Shown one piece after another: positions 4,973 through 10,588 of a stretch of DNA of 64,000 nucleotides; position 1 is the stretch's first letter; each line of letters starts with the position of its first letter. The position numbers were made by a program, and so were the translations under genes. Source of the DNA: Halomonas salipaludis (GTDB lineage: Bacteria; Pseudomonadota; Gammaproteobacteria; Pseudomonadales; Halomonadaceae). The notes beneath the pieces were generated by a model. It saw only the letters and a list, made by a program, of their open reading frames with translations, was not told the origin of the DNA and did not search any database. The stretch covers positions 496,001 to 560,000 of the forward strand of contig NZ_NSKB01000002.1 of NCBI RefSeq assembly GCF_002286975.1. Reading direction: 5' to 3'.

Positions 4973-5383
4973 ATGTCCCATCTGCTGTTCGTGTACGGCA
5001 CCCTCAAGCGCGGTTTCGCCAACCACGCAGGCTATCTCGGCGAGGCCGAATTCCTCGACCTGGCGGTGACCTGCGAGCCCTTTCCGTTGGTGCTCAACGG
5101 TCCGCGTTACTCGCCGGTGCTGGTCGACGCCCAGGGCCAGGGGCTCAAGGTCCAGGGCGAGCTGTTCCGCGTCGACGCCCCGACCCTGGATGAACTCGAC
5201 CGCCTGGAGCGGGTCAATGATCGCGACGGTTATCGTCGCCGACGACTGGCCATCGCCGACCCGCACGGCCAGGTGCAGGCCGCCTGGAGCTACCTCAAAC
5301 CGCCGAGTTGGGTGGAAGATGTCAGGAGCGAGCCCATGGCGGTGTATGATGATCGCCGCTACCGTCCCAGGCCCGACGCCTGA
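4973..5383 (+). CDS. Gamma-glutamylcyclotransferase family protein
   Basis: 136 residues with the YGTLKRG phosphate-binding type motif at residues 9-15 (VYGTLKRGFANHAGYLG), which marks the gamma-glutamylcyclotransferase/AIG2-like fold. Family members release 5-oxoproline from gamma-glutamyl amines or amino acids. A glutamate suited as the catalytic acid is present in the KVQGELFRVDAPTLDELDRLE region. It has a good ribosome site (GGGAGG) before the ATG at 4973. It is divergent from the LysR gene. Together with the glutamine-synthetase-like gene it would fit a gamma-glutamylation pathway that adds and later removes glutamyl groups; that link is inference. Confidence 0.85.
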   Translation: MSHLLFVYGTLKRGFANHAGYLGEAEFLDLAVTCEPFPLVLNGPRYSPVLVDAQGQGLKVQGELFRVDAPTLDELDRLERVNDRDGYRRRRLAIADPHGQVQAAWSYLKPPSWVEDVRSEPMAVYDDRRYRPRPDA

Positions 5384-5433
5384 GCCAACGTTTCATTCAT
5401 GGCCGACCCCATCGCTACAACCCGGAGGTAACG

Positions 5434-6246
5434 ATGAGCGCTACGGCAAGCGCCCCACCCGATGCATTTCGCCCCGCCTCGACCTGGACCGCCTGGGGCC
5501 AGTGGCTGGCCCTGGCAACCATGAGCATCGATCACCTGACCCGCTACGTGCTGCCCGAAAGCTGGCAGCTCGACTGGGCCGGCTCCTCGATCGGGCGCAT
5601 CGCCTTCCCGCTGTTTGCCGCCATGGTCGCCTGGCACGGGCTGTTCAACACTCGCAACCCGCAGCGCTATGCGCGGCGCATCCTGGTCATCGGCCTCGTC
5701 GCGCAGCTGCCCTACATGATGATGCCGCGGGCCTCGGACGCCTTTATCCTGAATGTCTGCTTCACGCTGGCGGCGGGGCTTTGCGGCGGCGCCTGGCTGC
5801 GTGAACTGGCGGCCCGTCAGGCGCGCGGCGAGCTGGCCGCGCACTGGGCGGCACTCGGCGCCGCGGCAACGCTGGTCGCCTGGTACCTGCTCGGCGACTG
5901 GGTCGAATACGGCCACAACGGCCTGCTGCTGATCCCGCTGCTGATGTTCGCCATGCACCATCTGAGCCAGGCCGGAACCCACTTTTCGGCACGCCTGCTG
6001 GCCGCCGCCGCGGCATTCCCGGCGCTGTGGGTGGCGGGCCAGATGAACGCCTCGGACATGGCCAAGTCGTTCACCGTGGCCACCTGCCTGACGGTGCTGC
6101 TGCTCGCCGCCGGCGCCGCCCAGCGCGTGCCCCGAGTCGGCGTGGTGATGCCGCGGCGGCTGTGGCTGGCCTGGTACCCCGGCCACTTCGCACTGATCGC
6201 CGCCTGGCTTTGGGTTATCGGCGCCGCGAGTTGGCCTCTCGGCTAG
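5434..6246 (+). CDS. TraX family membrane protein
   Basis: 270 residues, a multi-spanning membrane protein of the TraX family. The plasmid-encoded prototype N-acetylates F pilin, but chromosomal copies have no known role. Seen directly: the conserved opening with MSIDHLTRYVLP, then IGRIAFPLFAAMVAWH and the arginine-rich RYARRILVIGLVAQLPYM, followed by several hydrophobic helices. The start ATG at 5434 is preceded by CGGAGG. There are no conjugation genes nearby, so a pilus role is unlikely; acyl transfer to another surface molecule is possible. It ends 15 bases before the convergent b5/FMN gene. Confidence 0.82.
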   Translation: MSATASAPPDAFRPASTWTAWGQWLALATMSIDHLTRYVLPESWQLDWAGSSIGRIAFPLFAAMVAWHGLFNTRNPQRYARRILVIGLVAQLPYMMMPRASDAFILNVCFTLAAGLCGGAWLRELAARQARGELAAHWAALGAAATLVAWYLLGDWVEYGHNGLLLIPLLMFAMHHLSQAGTHFSARLLAAAAAFPALWVAGQMNASDMAKSFTVATCLTVLLLAAGAAQRVPRVGVVMPRRLWLAWYPGHFALIAAWLWVIGAASWPLG

Positions 6247-6261
6247 TGGCCTAACGCGCCC

Positions 6262-7098
6262 TTACGGCCAGCTGTATACCCCGCGGTTGAGGCCGTCGCG
6301 CATCGCCGAGATCACCTTGGCGCCGCGCAGGGTGGCGCCGCTGAAGCCGTCTACCTCGTCGACCACGCGCGCCGGCTCGTAGAGCGCGAATATAGTAGTC
6401 AACGGCTCACCCTCCAGCCACTCGGTAATCCGACGGTGCTGGACCATCACCGGGTAGAGGTCATCGCCCTCCTCGAGGGTCAGGTAGTCGACGCCGCGAT
6501 AGGCGAGGTGGCGGAAGTTGACGTCGGTCAGGTGGCCATCGCGCAGGTCGAAGGTGATATTGACCTGTATCTCGCCACGATCGGTGAACACGCCCCGGTA
6601 GTGGCCATCCATGGGCTGGCCCAGCATGGCCCGGTGCAGGCGCTGGTCCTCGGCGGGCGATACCGACGCCGCTGGGCTGGCATCCTGGCGCTCAGCGTCT
6701 GCGCTGGTGTCCTCGACGTCGCCGCTAAGCGGCTCGCCCTGGTCGTCGACCAGGTCACCGATACGGTAGTTCTCGAGCTGGCGCTCGGCACCCGGGCTAT
6801 GCGGTCTCCCGGGGCTCTTGTTGTCCCACGCTTCGCTGGATTCGCGGCCGCACCACTCGAGGATGACCTCCTCCTCGGTGGGGTGGTCAGGCACATAGTC
6901 GGTGATGTCGTAGACGCCGCCATGGATGGCCTTCCAGCAGCTCTCGGCACTGGCGTGCTCGGCCAGCTCGTCGAGCGTAATGTCACGCGTCTCGGACGCC
7001 CCGTCGGTCTCATCGTCCGAAGACAGCGCATGCACCGACACCAGGGTGCCGATACTGGCCAGGAAGGCGATGAAGGCACTATAGGCAAACTTGTTCAT
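6262..7098 (-). CDS. Exported cytochrome b5-like / FMN-binding domain fusion protein
   Basis: 278 residues. One N-terminal hydrophobic segment (residues 5-22) anchors or exports it. Residues 38-115 form a cytochrome b5-like domain with two candidate heme ligands, H72 in DHPTEEE and H100 in PHSPGAERQ; the usual HPGG is here HPTE. An acidic linker (about 118-150) leads to an FMN-binding domain ending in DGFSGATLRGAK, where T256 of SGAT fits the site that ApbE enzymes load with covalent FMN. It overlaps the upstream flavocytochrome gene by ATGA. Electron carrier outside the cytoplasm is the natural reading; the terminal acceptor is unknown. Confidence 0.82.
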   Translation of the reverse strand: MNKFAYSAFIAFLASIGTLVSVHALSSDDETDGASETRDITLDELAEHASAESCWKAIHGGVYDITDYVPDHPTEEEVILEWCGRESSEAWDNKSPGRPHSPGAERQLENYRIGDLVDDQGEPLSGDVEDTSADAERQDASPAASVSPAEDQRLHRAMLGQPMDGHYRGVFTDRGEIQVNITFDLRDGHLTDVNFRHLAYRGVDYLTLEEGDDLYPVMVQHRRITEWLEGEPLTTIFALYEPARVVDEVDGFSGATLRGAKVISAMRDGLNRGVYSWP

Positions 7099-8387
7099 AG
7101 GAAATCGAAGACCTCGCAGTGGATGCGCGCGGCCGGCACGCCTTGGGCGTCAAGCAGGTCGCGCAGGTGGCCAATCATCCCGGGCGGGCCGCACAGGTAG
7201 ATCTCTCGGTCGGCGTAGTCCGGGCAGTGGTGACGCAGGAAGGATTCGGTCAGCGGGCCCAGCTCGCGATAGAAGTGGGTCGTCACCGTGAAGCGCTCGT
7301 TCTCCCCGGCGCAGCGGGTGAGCTCATCGAGGTAGTAGGCGCGGTCAGGGCCATTGGCCAGGTAGAACAGCTGCACGCCGCGCCCCTCGTCCACGTCGGC
7401 CATGCCCCGCGCCGCGCTGACAAACGGCGTGATACCGATGCCGCCGCCCAGCCATAGCGCATCGCGATCGGGATGGTGCGCGGCGAAGAAGTCGCCGTAG
7501 GGGCCCTCCAACATTACCCGGCTACCCACACTGACCGTCTGCAGCGCGTGACTGGCGTCGCCGAGGTCCTTGATGCCGATCCGCAGCAGCGGGTCATGCG
7601 GTGCCGAGGCGATGGTGTAGGGATGTTCCTCACCCCGCCCCGCCGTCAACGACTCGTCGAGCGGCGTGAAATAGACGAACTGGCCGGGGCGATAGCCAAG
7701 CCCGCGGGCCTCCGGGCGCAGCGCAATTTCCACCACCCCGCGGGCCAGCGGTGCGACGCTCGCCACCCGGTAGGGGTGGCGAGCAAGCGATGGCGACAGC
7801 AGCTTGCGCCACACCATGGCCCCGGCGCCCAGGGCGCCGAGCAGCCACCACGGCCAGGTCTCCCCCGCCAGCGGCAACGCGTGGCCCAGCGCCAGCAGCA
7901 GCGCCGCTGCCGAGAGCATGTGCAGCCCCTTCCAGCGCTGGTAGTCGAGCCGCCCGAAGAAGCGGAAGGTCGGCGCCAGGAAGATCACCATCGCCAGCCA
8001 GGCCAGCCAGCCGCTCCACAGTGCCAGCTGCGACGGCGGCGGGAACAGCGTCAGCACCGCCACGTCGAGGCCCGCCGGCACCCGCGCCAGACCCAGGGCC
8101 AGCACGTGCAGCATGATCAGGATAAAGGCGCTGAAACCGAGCAGCCGGTGCAGCTGCCAGAGCCGGTCGAGTCCACCGAACCAGCGGTCGAATCCCGGCA
8201 GCCGGATACTCAAGGCCGCGGTCACCAACAGCATGGCAAGCCCCACAATCCCGCTGACGCGCCCCACCCAGCCGAGCAGCGCCGCCGCCTCACCCGGCGG
8301 CCAGCCCAGTCTCGGCGCGGCCACCATCAGCGGCACCAGCAGCGCGACGATCAGCAGCAGGTCGCCGCGGTAGAGACGCAACGCCAT
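7095..8387 (-). CDS. Ferric-reductase-like transmembrane flavocytochrome (NAD(P)H oxidoreductase)
   Basis: 430 residues. The N-terminal half is a ferric-reductase-like membrane domain with paired histidines H80/H94 and H156/H169 (QLHRLLGF, IMLHVLAL, KGLHMLSA, ALGHALPL), spaced to hold two b hemes. The C-terminal half is a ferredoxin-reductase module: an FAD site at HPYTIASAP, an NAD site at GGGIGITPFVSAARG, and the closing YLCGPPGM. It would pass electrons from cytoplasmic NAD(P)H across the membrane. Its stop overlaps the start of the b5/FMN gene, so the two probably form one electron route. The start ATG at 8387 has GAGGAGGG upstream, and a perfect FNR/Anr box lies 73 bases before it. Confidence 0.88.
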   Translation of the reverse strand: MALRLYRGDLLLIVALLVPLMVAAPRLGWPPGEAAALLGWVGRVSGIVGLAMLLVTAALSIRLPGFDRWFGGLDRLWQLHRLLGFSAFILIMLHVLALGLARVPAGLDVAVLTLFPPPSQLALWSGWLAWLAMVIFLAPTFRFFGRLDYQRWKGLHMLSAAALLLALGHALPLAGETWPWWLLGALGAGAMVWRKLLSPSLARHPYRVASVAPLARGVVEIALRPEARGLGYRPGQFVYFTPLDESLTAGRGEEHPYTIASAPHDPLLRIGIKDLGDASHALQTVSVGSRVMLEGPYGDFFAAHHPDRDALWLGGGIGITPFVSAARGMADVDEGRGVQLFYLANGPDRAYYLDELTRCAGENERFTVTTHFYRELGPLTESFLRHHCPDYADREIYLCGPPGMIGHLRDLLDAQGVPAARIHCEVFDFL

Positions 8388-8459
8388 ACGCCCTCCTCAT
8401 CAGTCAGATCTACAGTGTCGACGAGGCGCGAGCTGACGCAAGACAAGACACGGCGTTAC

Positions 8460-8473
8460 TTGATCCATATCAA
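8460..8473. promoter_or_regulatory. FNR/Anr-type binding site
   Basis: TTGATCCATATCAA is a perfect match to the FNR/Anr consensus TTGAT-N4-ATCAA. It lies in the divergent space between the flavocytochrome gene (start 8387) and phoX (start 8564). It is closer to the redox operon, 73 bases before its start codon, so it most likely ties that operon to low oxygen. Which promoter it serves is inference. Confidence 0.7.
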
Positions 8474-8498
8474 CGCATGTCACCCAATCGACGCCATT

Positions 8499-8516
8499 AG
8501 GTCATGCCAGTGTCAT
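8499..8516 (+). promoter_or_regulatory. Candidate PhoB box upstream of phoX
   Basis: AGGTCAT and GTGTCAT are separated by four bases, matching the two 7-base half-sites of the PhoB box (CTGTCAT-N4-CTGTCAT) at 5 and 6 of 7 positions. It lies 48 bases before the phoX start, where PhoB would act. The match is imperfect, but the gene downstream is a classic phosphate-starvation gene. Confidence 0.5.
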
Positions 8517-8563
8517 CAAGGCTGCCAACAATGGCGTTTCGTTCCACGTGAGGAGACATGGCC

Positions 8564-10588
8564 ATGAAACACCCGCAGCAACCCGGCGCGGTCGATCCGA
8601 TTCTCGCCGACGGCGACGAGCCGCTCAGCAATATGTCCGGCAACCCCTATTTCGGCGATATCCTGGAGACTCGTCTCAGTCGGCGCAGCGTGCTGCGTGG
8701 CAGCCTGGCCACTTTCGTCGCCGGCGCCATGGCCACGCACCTGCCGTTCTCCTCCGCCTTCGCCGCCGAGGGAAGCGCTGCGGCGGCTCCCAGTCTCGGC
8801 TTCTCGGCAATTCCCACCAGCGCCGCCGACGCTGTGATCGTGCCCGACGGTTACCGGGTACAAGCCATGCTGCCCATGGGCACCCCGATCAGCGGCGCCA
8901 TGCCCGCCTACTCGCTCTCCGCCAGCGGTGAGGACCAGGCCCACCAGGTCGGCAGCCACCACGACGGCATGCACTTCTTCCCGCTGCAGGGCAGCTCCCG
9001 CGACGGCCTGCTGGTGATGAACCACGAGTACATCGAGCCGCGCTTCCTGCACGCCGCAGCGGCCGGCCTAGCCCTCGACCGCAGCGGCTTCCCGCAGAAC
9101 GAGGACGGCAGCCGCGACGACGACCAGGTGCTCAAGGAGCTCAACGCCCACGGCGTAACCGTGGTGCGCGTGCGTGCGGACGACCAGGGCCAGTGGCAGG
9201 TGGTCGAGGACGCCCACAACCGCCGCATCACCGGCCTGACGCCGATGCGCCTGGCCGGGCCGGTCGCCGGCACCGAGCACGTGGTGACCAAGTACAGCCC
9301 GGACGGCAGCATGACCCGCGGCACCCTCAACAACTGCGCCCACGGCGTCACGCCGTGGAACACCTACCTGGCCGCCGAGGAAAACTGGGCCGGCTACTTC
9401 GCCAATAGCGACGCCGAGCTCGACCGTCGCCAGGCCCGCTACGGCATCGAGACCCGCGACAGCGGTCGCTACCAATGGCACCGGGCCGCCGGCGGCGCCG
9501 ACGAGTATGTGCGCTTCGACGCCAGCGCCCGCGGCGCCTCCGCCAGCGAGGACTACCGCAACGAGCCCCATGCCTTCGGCTGGATGGTCGAGATCGACCC
9601 CATGGACCCGGCCTCGACACCGATCAAGCGCACCCACCTGGGCCGCTTCGCCCACGAAGGGGTGATCTTCGCCCCGGCGGTGGAGGGCCAGCCGGTAGTC
9701 GCCTACTCCGGCGACGACGCACGCTTCGAATACATCTACAAGTTCGTCTCGGCGCGCCCCTTCGAGGCCGCCACGGCCGACGGTTCCCTGCTCGACGAAG
9801 GCACGCTGTATGTGGCGAGATTCAACGATGACGGCAGCGGCGAGTGGCTGGCGCTGGTCCCGGGTGAGAACGGCCTGACCCCGGAAAACGGCTTCGCCGA
9901 CCTGGCCGATATCCTGGTCAATACCCGCAGCGCCGCCGACCACGCCGGCGCCACCAAGATGGACCGCCCCGAGTGGGGCGCGGTGGACCCGATCACCGGC
10001 CAGGTCTACTTCACCCTGACCAACAACACCCAGCGTGAGGAAAACCAAACCGATGCCGTCAACCCTCGCGCTGATAACACCTTCGGCCAGATCGTGCGCT
10101 GGCAGGAAGAGGGCAGCCATGCCGGAACCCGTTTTGCCTGGGACCTGTTCGTGCTGGCCGGCGACCAGGACGACAGCCGCGACCTGACCGGCGAGCCACT
10201 GGACCAGGACGCCATCTTCGCCAGCCCCGACGGCCTGTGGATCGACCCAGACCGCCGCGTCTGGATTCAGACCGACATCAGCGAGTCGGTGATGAACAGC
10301 GGTATTTATGAGGTATTCGGCAACAACCAGATGCTCGCCGCCAACCCCGAGACCGGCGAGATCAAGCGTTTTCTCACCGGCCCGGTGGGCCAGGAGATCA
10401 CCGGCGTGATCACCACTCCGGATCAGCGCACCATGTTCGTCAACGTGCAGCACCCGGGGGCCACCACCGAGGCCGAGGCCTTCGCGGCGGGCAATCTGAT
10501 CAGCCACTGGCCGGACGGCGGCAGCGCCATCCCGCGCTCGGCCACTCTGGTGATCACCCGCGAGGACGGCGGCATCATCGGCGCCTGA
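8564..10588 (+). CDS. phoX: PhoX family alkaline phosphatase
   Basis: 674 residues of the PhoX (DUF839) family: calcium- and iron-dependent exported phosphatases that release phosphate from organic esters. A twin-arginine signal lies near residues 45-70 (LSRRSVLRGSLATFVAGAMA, then SSAFAAEG). The conserved segments GLLVMNHEYIEP, NNCAHGVTPWNTYLAAEENW, GRFAHEGVIFAPA and MDRPEWGAVDPITGQVYFT fit the metal-binding beta-propeller. AGGAG at 8551 sits eight bases before the ATG at 8564; the ATG at 8558 is too close to it. It stands alone, with a PhoB-box candidate upstream and a strong hairpin after the stop. Confidence 0.95.
   Translation: MKHPQQPGAVDPILADGDEPLSNMSGNPYFGDILETRLSRRSVLRGSLATFVAGAMATHLPFSSAFAAEGSAAAAPSLGFSAIPTSAADAVIVPDGYRVQAMLPMGTPISGAMPAYSLSASGEDQAHQVGSHHDGMHFFPLQGSSRDGLLVMNHEYIEPRFLHAAAAGLALDRSGFPQNEDGSRDDDQVLKELNAHGVTVVRVRADDQGQWQVVEDAHNRRITGLTPMRLAGPVAGTEHVVTKYSPDGSMTRGTLNNCAHGVTPWNTYLAAEENWAGYFANSDAELDRRQARYGIETRDSGRYQWHRAAGGADEYVRFDASARGASASEDYRNEPHAFGWMVEIDPMDPASTPIKRTHLGRFAHEGVIFAPAVEGQPVVAYSGDDARFEYIYKFVSARPFEAATADGSLLDEGTLYVARFNDDGSGEWLALVPGENGLTPENGFADLADILVNTRSAADHAGATKMDRPEWGAVDPITGQVYFTLTNNTQREENQTDAVNPRADNTFGQIVRWQEEGSHAGTRFAWDLFVLAGDQDDSRDLTGEPLDQDAIFASPDGLWIDPDRRVWIQTDISESVMNSGIYEVFGNNQMLAANPETGEIKRFLTGPVGQEITGVITTPDQRTMFVNVQHPGATTEAEAFAAGNLISHWPDGGSAIPRSATLVITREDGGIIGA

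Follow-up and report, generated by a model that had tools for sequence, protein, structure and literature searches.

A conserved pair of a NOX-like flavocytochrome and a cytochrome b5-FMN protein in Halomonas salipaludis and its relatives: a candidate outward electron relay

Organization of the locus

We analyzed a 64-kb stretch of the Halomonas salipaludis genome (5.48 Mb), located on contig C12 and called the window below. The subject is a pair of genes on its minus strand. One encodes a transmembrane flavocytochrome of the NOX/ferric-reductase type (430 residues, 7095..8387), and the other encodes a protein (278 residues, 6262..7098) joining a cytochrome b5 domain to a domain that resembles flavin mononucleotide (FMN)-binding domains, referred to as the b5-FMN protein. 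The two open reading frames overlap by 4 bp, and a first-pass annotation of the window had placed them correctly. Among named loci, the nearest come from Franzmannia, Halomonas, and Billgrantia.

The flavocytochrome

The 430-residue protein contains the Pfam domains Ferric_reduct (PF01794; E 1.5e-13, 51.3 bits against a cut-off of 28), FAD_binding_8 (6.3e-9), and NAD_binding_1 (2.1e-9). Its closest solved relative by sequence is the Streptococcus pneumoniae NOX (SpNOX, 8qt6; E 1.9e-24). The AlphaFold model (pLDDT 80.8, pTM 0.75) matched full-length SpNOX in Foldseek (E 8.6e-23, TM 0.78/0.84) and has six transmembrane helices at residues 7-27, 34-59, 73-101, 121-140, 156-173, and 178-201. Four histidines are invariant in the 14 aligned flavocytochromes, and the model positions H80 and H94 on helix 3 and H156 and H169 on helix 5. 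This is the placement expected for two stacked b hemes, of which the four residues are probably the ligands. These results agree with the first-pass annotation, which had described a ferric-reductase-like membrane protein with two-heme sites and sites for flavin adenine dinucleotide (FAD) and reduced nicotinamide adenine dinucleotide (phosphate), NAD(P)H.

Bacterial NOX proteins have been defined by three sequence filters (PMC5676040). The spacings H80-X13-H94 and H156-X12-H169 fit the filter of two His-X12/14-His motifs with six transmembrane helices, and GIGITP, which satisfies the second filter, is invariant in all 14 aligned proteins. The FAD motif is HPYT in the same 14 (HPYTI in the window) and fails the remaining filter, H[PSA]F[TS][LIMV]; at two other loci, L065 and L066, it is HPFTI. 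An alternative function is that of a bacterial NADPH oxidase. The flavocytochrome would then reduce O2 to superoxide on the outside of the membrane, with the b5 or b5-FMN protein as an accessory or a second oxygen-reactive site. The SpNOX match, the two filters that fit, and the use of O2 by reduced SaFMN3 (PMC10339131) favor such an oxidase. However, the FAD motif departs from the oxidase pattern, all 37 genomes with the flavocytochrome have the b5 partner, for which an oxidase in direct reaction with O2 would have no need, and an FNR-type box upstream points to low oxygen. We consider an oxidase unlikely.

The cytochrome b5 domain and the N-terminal helix

The b5 domain of the 278-residue protein spans residues 39-117 (6748..6984, minus strand), with the Pfam Cyt-b5 match at residues 41-116 (1.6e-15). 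It is closest to the crystallized cytochrome b558 of Ectothiorhodospira vacuolata (1CXY; E 3.4e-25), followed by a eukaryotic b5 (8.5e-14). The two bacterial domains are 56% identical. Both have two cysteines and, ahead of the second heme ligand, a short insertion of four residues, a combination not found in the two eukaryotic proteins aligned alongside. The 1CXY chain has 90 residues and, unlike the b5-FMN protein, no FMN domain.

The probable heme ligands are H72 and H100. The first-pass annotation had pointed out HPTE in place of the usual HPGG, which is correct (H72-P-T-E) though not unusual in this family, since all 28 aligned relatives retain HPT and H100, and the corresponding sequence in 1CXY is HPGP. 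The sequence HPTE is thus no ground to doubt heme binding, and we rejected the idea that heme was lost from the domain. The cysteines C54 and C83 are both present in all 45 members of the set. Their counterparts in 1CXY reportedly form a disulfide bond, and the b5 domain here is probably disulfide-braced as well.

The hydrophobic N-terminal segment (residues 1-25; 7024..7098, minus strand) would act as the export signal, and the model has a helix at residues 3-27. Among 12 divergent members, mean column identity is 0.556 for residues 4-20 and 0.545 for the b5 domain (residues 39-117), and A11 and F12 are invariant in 45 of 45 sequences. Cleaved signal peptides are seldom so conserved. Given a conservation equal to that of the b5 domain, the helix may be a membrane anchor that docks on the flavocytochrome; the signal-peptide control, 8 closely similar proteins, was too uniform to decide. 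Export of the protein, claimed by the first-pass annotation, is consistent with the N-terminal helix and the predicted location, but the helix may be a retained anchor and not merely a signal peptide.

The FMN domain and ApbE

The C-terminal domain (residues 163-278; 6265..6612, minus strand) is probably a divergent member of the FMN_bind type, to which several weak lines of evidence point. The Pfam match to FMN_bind (PF04205) covers residues 175-270 with E 0.0026 and 18.8 bits, under the 22-bit cut-off. When the 20 members of the domain alignment were scanned singly, all gave matches at E <= 1, the best being 1.3e-4; the score of L069 was 0.092. The top Protein Data Bank match of the domain profile was 8P2B, at a marginal E of 0.065. 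In the modeled structure, residues 163-273 align to 8P2A (Z 7.8, root-mean-square deviation 3.0, 86 of 89 residues), a match which, with Z < 8, may reflect a common arrangement according to the tool's warning. Fold searches with the whole b5-FMN model were dominated by the b5 domain, which accounted for 49 of the 50 matches in the list that included 8P2A. The crystallized domains 8P2A and 8P2B both have the motif DxxxGAT and were covalently flavinylated by means of ApbE (PMC10339131). The motif is present here as DGFSGAT (D250-T256), and [ST]GAT is found in 20 of the 21 aligned FMN domains, with SSAT in L033. The SGAT sequence that the first-pass annotation had assigned to a b5-linked FMN domain lies at residues 253-256, so that T256 is the correct candidate residue for FMN attachment.

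That annotation had made its proposal depend on an apbE gene in the genome, and three matches were found, on contigs C23 and C33. Two are full length with lipoprotein-like signals, as judged by eye, and the third is partial and lies beside nqr. NqrC is the only FMN_bind match at E <= 0.001 in the genome. Across the genomes tested, ApbE was found in 40 of 42, namely 28 of 29 with the b5-FMN protein, 11 of 12 with a b5-only protein, and Natroniella, the exceptions being G635 and G394. The 29 comprise 25 of the 31 family genomes with an FMN part (six incomplete assemblies were omitted), G812, G635, and two Saccharospirillum. Since ApbE occurs in b5-FMN and b5-only genomes alike, its presence does not discriminate between them. 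At locus L100, the match of an ApbE-like gene beside nqrF (5239-6288) to the ApbE family is limited to the second half of the family, and this gene may encode a short or divergent flavin transferase.

Co-occurrence of the two genes

In 275 Halomonadaceae genomes, the b5-FMN protein was matched in 40. The flavocytochrome, searched with at most 6 candidates scored per genome, was found at E <= 1e-60 in 37, all of which are within the 40. As for the three other b5 matches, the contig ends at the gene in G089 and G243, and G273 has a decayed, stop-ridden remnant around SGAT. Among 27 named loci, many of which are from the same species as in the family set, 26 have the b5 gene, and the flavocytochrome gene is directly upstream in every one (internally deleted in L033 and cut by the contig end in L034). 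The 27th, from Natroniella (L050), has the FMN domain alone. At two loci the flavocytochrome gene is damaged beside an open b5-FMN frame: that of L033 lacks about residues 154-270, with SSAT replacing SGAT in the partner, and that of L083 is split across two frames.

The pair is also found outside the family. A class-wide sample of 369 genomes gave 11 matches besides the window's own. Four of these (L053-L056) are signal-bearing b5 proteins of the b558 type, each with an adjacent flavocytochrome, two (L057, L058) are other proteins, and five short weak matches (L059-L063) were left out of the pair count. In the order of one of the class-wide genomes, 5 of 19 genomes matched; the new loci L065-L067 have the pair, whereas only a fragment of a contig is present for L068. 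When 398 genomes of the phylum were sampled and searched at 1e-10, two matched besides the window's own, L069 with the pair and L070 with another protein. Besides the named loci, the pair is adjacent in 8 of 8 other loci outside Halomonadaceae where the flavocytochrome region is in view. A plasmid search returned two partial matches, a 31% FMN-domain match in an unannotated Fusobacterium record and a Streptomyces b5 match.

Judged by genome sequence, the two genes go together, and related pairs exist in other families. The first-pass annotation had suggested looking for the b5-FMN domain pair and its gene neighbors in other genomes. In this search the flavocytochrome partner proved to be conserved across species, genera, and families, with identities of 45-92%. 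The pairing is therefore not due to chance, and a chance reading frame or a pseudogene was rejected.

Loss and likely exchange of the FMN domain

The FMN domain is less constant than the pair. The 40 family matches consist of 31 with the FMN part, 8 that are b5-only, and the one remnant. In the b5-only genomes, the flavocytochrome gene is directly upstream in 7 of 8, and the remaining one (G236) is cut off by the contig end at that point. More distant families are also b5-only. We mapped the FMN state on a tree of 42 flavocytochromes, with three partial ones omitted and L054 scored as FMN-bearing from the visible start of the domain. Five changes are needed, of which at least 4 are forced by well-supported branches. 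The simplest reading would be one gain, one replacement in Saccharospirillum, and three losses, in Billgrantia endophytica, in a clade of five Halomonas, and in Vreelandella rituensis. The loss in B. endophytica is shown by a deletion scar in L048 (6378-6440), where the last codons of the FMN domain, DGLNRGVYEWP, are out of frame just past the new stop. It was the sole case when scars were sought by eye downstream of the b5 gene in 14 loci, and the other two putative losses are read from the tree.

There are also signs of exchange. In Saccharospirillum (L049, L051), the b5 module is the same but is joined to an FMN_bind domain which the window's FMN domain does not match at 1e-4 and which is distinct or strongly diverged; in L049, the one of the two that was scanned, it scores 22.8 bits, just above the Pfam cut-off. 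In L018 and L030, the b5 domain and the flavocytochrome are about 90% identical to those of the window, but the FMN domain is just 60% identical. Keeping the six FMN domains from the window's clade in one group was rejected (p-AU 0.0014; the group was picked after the identities had been seen), and a one-domain exchange by recombination is likely for these two loci.

The profile of the FMN domain matched only the window's own genome among 274 genomes of the class, indicating that FMN domains of this type are rare. In Natroniella L050, the type occurs as two stand-alone proteins encoded in tandem, with signal-like N-termini. They are followed by two similar lipoprotein-like proteins (7142-9637), each with SGAT and AGAT, which are possible multi-flavin proteins. 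Taken across genomes, the flavocytochrome and b5 would form a constant core, with the FMN domain as an optional and exchangeable output module. The first-pass annotation had drawn a chain from NAD(P)H to FMN. Its pairing and domain content hold, but FMN as the essential terminus does not, because 8 of the 40 family genomes are b5-only.

An FNR-type box upstream of the pair

The sequence TTGATCCATATCAA at 8460..8473 (no strand assigned) is the sole exact FNR/ANR-type box in the window, where 0.02 would be expected; we took the consensus to be TTGAT-N4-ATCAA. It is 72 bp upstream of the flavocytochrome start, in an intergenic region (8388-8557) common to the flavocytochrome gene and a divergent gene for a PhoX phosphatase. 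Among 42 regions upstream of the flavocytochrome, the box has two or fewer mismatches in 31, one or none in 18, and is exact in 5, counts which are inflated by the kinship of the sequences. In Halomonadaceae, 26 of 32 upstream regions have it with two or fewer mismatches, 25 of these at 72-88 bp. The distance is 52-55 bp in Saccharospirillum and 40-51 bp in the family f175. Random 350-bp stretches have such a box with one or no mismatch in 2.1% and with two or fewer in 11.5% of cases. Control genes at the same loci had no box with two or fewer mismatches (purE 0/15, traX 0/20, lysR 0/14). The phoX upstream regions have one in 9 of 15, the intergenic region being common to both genes. In L045 and L046 a purK-like gene, not phoX, is upstream, and a two-mismatch box is kept at 85 bp. 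The box therefore belongs at least to the flavocytochrome gene. This control DNA suggests that the pair is used at low oxygen.

The same upstream regions bear on two other explanations. The flavocytochrome could be an assimilatory ferric reductase freeing iron from ferric complexes in the periplasm, a function favored by its Ferric_reduct domain and by the iron transporter in some MsrQ-like clusters (PMC8238504). However, the best match to a Fur-like box, searched with a 19-base consensus, has 6 to 11 mismatches across the 42 regions, leaving Fur control unsupported, and no iron-uptake gene was seen among the few neighbors scanned. We regard this function as very unlikely. The pair could also be a dedicated donor to a periplasmic enzyme encoded elsewhere, in repair of the MsrPQ kind or, since DNR/NNR-type regulators use boxes similar to those of the FNR type, in denitrification or nitric-oxide handling. 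Besides the box, the host name Billgrantia aerodenitrificans (L027) suggests denitrification, and the related MsrQ serves a periplasmic enzyme (PMC8238504). No gene for such an enzyme was recognized at the loci, although most neighboring reading frames were just clustered or listed. A dedicated donor of this kind seems improbable, to about the same degree as the oxidase.

Neighboring genes

In four genomes of one order (G561, G643, G644, G641), an MtrB/PioB porin is encoded near the pair and convergent with it, at about 70 to 230 bp between matches in three of them and 3.8 kb in G643. A cytochrome with ten CxxCH heme motifs adjoins the porin in all four. MtrB/PioB was above the cut-off in 6 of 44 genomes, the other two being G812 and G085. 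An MtrAB neighbor as the general partner of the pair was rejected on these counts.

We also discarded a functional link to phoX, to the purE/purK-like genes, and to traX. They look like shared chromosomal neighbors and are not kept in every lineage. P-type ATPase genes were seen at some distant loci. In family f175, one is about 50-80 bp upstream of the flavocytochrome gene on the same strand (L102, 9339-12086, from a Pfam scan, and L108, 3804-6542). In G812, the gene upstream of the pair (L106, 10215-12653) encodes a P-type ATPase of the heavy-metal type that contains YHS and HMBD domains, and a metal-resistance island is possible there.

Proposed electron relay

We propose that the pair serves at low oxygen as an outward electron relay of two pieces, in which the flavocytochrome passes electrons to a tethered b5, and b5 passes them to an ApbE-attached FMN or directly to acceptors. 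We give this reading a probability of roughly 60%. Cytoplasmic NAD(P)H would reduce the FAD of the flavocytochrome. Electrons would then cross the membrane through two b hemes, the inner bound by H80/H156 and the outer by H94/H169, and move from the outer heme to the membrane-tethered b5 domain on the outer face. In H. salipaludis, b5 would pass them to FMN attached to T256 by ApbE, and FMN would reduce a periplasmic or diffusible acceptor. The component domains, their pairing, the optional FMN domain, and the conserved box can be read from the genomes. From these we infer the heme placement, the order and direction of transfer, the flavinylation, the anchoring, the disulfide, the regulator, and the acceptor. 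That b5 is constant and the FMN domain dispensable speaks for b5 as the recipient of electrons from the membrane hemes and for FMN as an output or side module. Use at low oxygen is favored because of the FNR-type box and the MtrAB neighbors.

Several observations weigh against the proposed relay. The box is missing (three or more mismatches) in 11 of the 42 upstream regions. These are six of the 32 in Halomonadaceae (L029, L031, L036, L038, L048, and L007, a near relative) and all five of the distant loci L103-L107, and 11.5% of random 350-bp stretches have a box with two or fewer mismatches. Apart from the pair, every family of reading frames is confined to at most 16 of the 27 named loci, and the neighborhood thus points to no acceptor gene. 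MtrB was not found above the cut-off in the window's own genome or, overall, in 38 of the 44 tested. The FMN domain is below the Pfam cut-off and its fold match is below Z 8. ApbE is also present in b5-only genomes. The ApbE search gave no match in G635, where the start of a b5-FMN gene lies at a contig end. Eukaryotic b5 hemes have higher potentials than -184 mV. If the b5 heme here is near those values, the transfer from b5 to FMN could be uphill, since crystallized SaFMN3 has a midpoint of -184 mV (PMC10339131).

A more specific form of the relay is an anaerobically controlled export module. In it, the NOX-like flavocytochrome would be the partner so far lacking for the orphan bacterial b5 structure 1CXY and would depend on the tethered outer-face b5, an ApbE-loaded FMN output domain would have been added, lost, or swapped among lineages, and in one order the module would feed an MtrAB-type outer-membrane conduit. 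We offer this form only tentatively, with odds somewhat below even.

Comparison with known systems

We know of no function assigned to the bacterial cytochrome b5 1CXY, and the relay, if correct, would give the family of this crystallized protein a likely partner and role. It would also mean that NOX-type flavocytochromes can pass electrons to a dedicated outer-face protein and not straight to oxygen. The lineages with no FMN domain, with the FMN type of the window, and with a second FMN type would then form a natural series in which the contribution of an ApbE-attached flavin to electron export could be studied. Because of the FNR-type box, the physiology is open to direct testing.

One of the closest parallels is with MsrQ-like flavinylation systems, in which a PF01794 membrane cytochrome, in many cases with an NAD-binding domain (often PF00175), is encoded with FMN-binding proteins, and NAD(P)H-driven transmembrane transfer has been proposed (PMC8238504). 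In the present pair, however, a single protein combines b5 with the FMN domain, which sister lineages lack. The adjacent FMN_bind-like gene is below the Pfam cut-off, and apbE is outside the cluster, on C23 and C33, compared with C12 for the pair. The term "cytochrome b5" does not occur in PMC8238504 or PMC11334425, nor "Cyt-b5" in the main text of PMC8238504. Among the best-ranked matches of literature searches on the b5-FMN domain pair and on the cytochrome b558 family, in a library with few subscription journals, no title or displayed abstract described the pair.

SpNOX, bacterial NOX, and long bFRE proteins share with our flavocytochrome the six transmembrane helices, two bis-His heme sites, and an FAD/NAD(P)H dehydrogenase domain (PMC5676040, PMC11031084, PMC3591440). 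The present protein differs in its HPYTI motif and its constant b5 partner, and it is NOX-like by sequence and fold. The FMN domain shares the DxxxGAT motif and probably the FMN_bind fold with SaFMN3-D2 and CbFMN4-D1 (8P2A, 8P2B), but those are repeats in multi-flavin proteins and the sequence similarity is marginal (PMC10339131). In iron oxidizers, other inner-membrane proteins with FRD-like heme motifs have been proposed in porin-cytochrome clusters (PMC5566968), which parallel the f175 pair near an MtrAB-like conduit. We view the pair as a variant of flavinylation-associated FRD/NOX-like systems already known. Beyond the first-pass annotation, the present analysis adds the FNR-type box, the relationship to 1CXY, and the evidence that the FMN domain has been lost in some lineages and exchanged in others.

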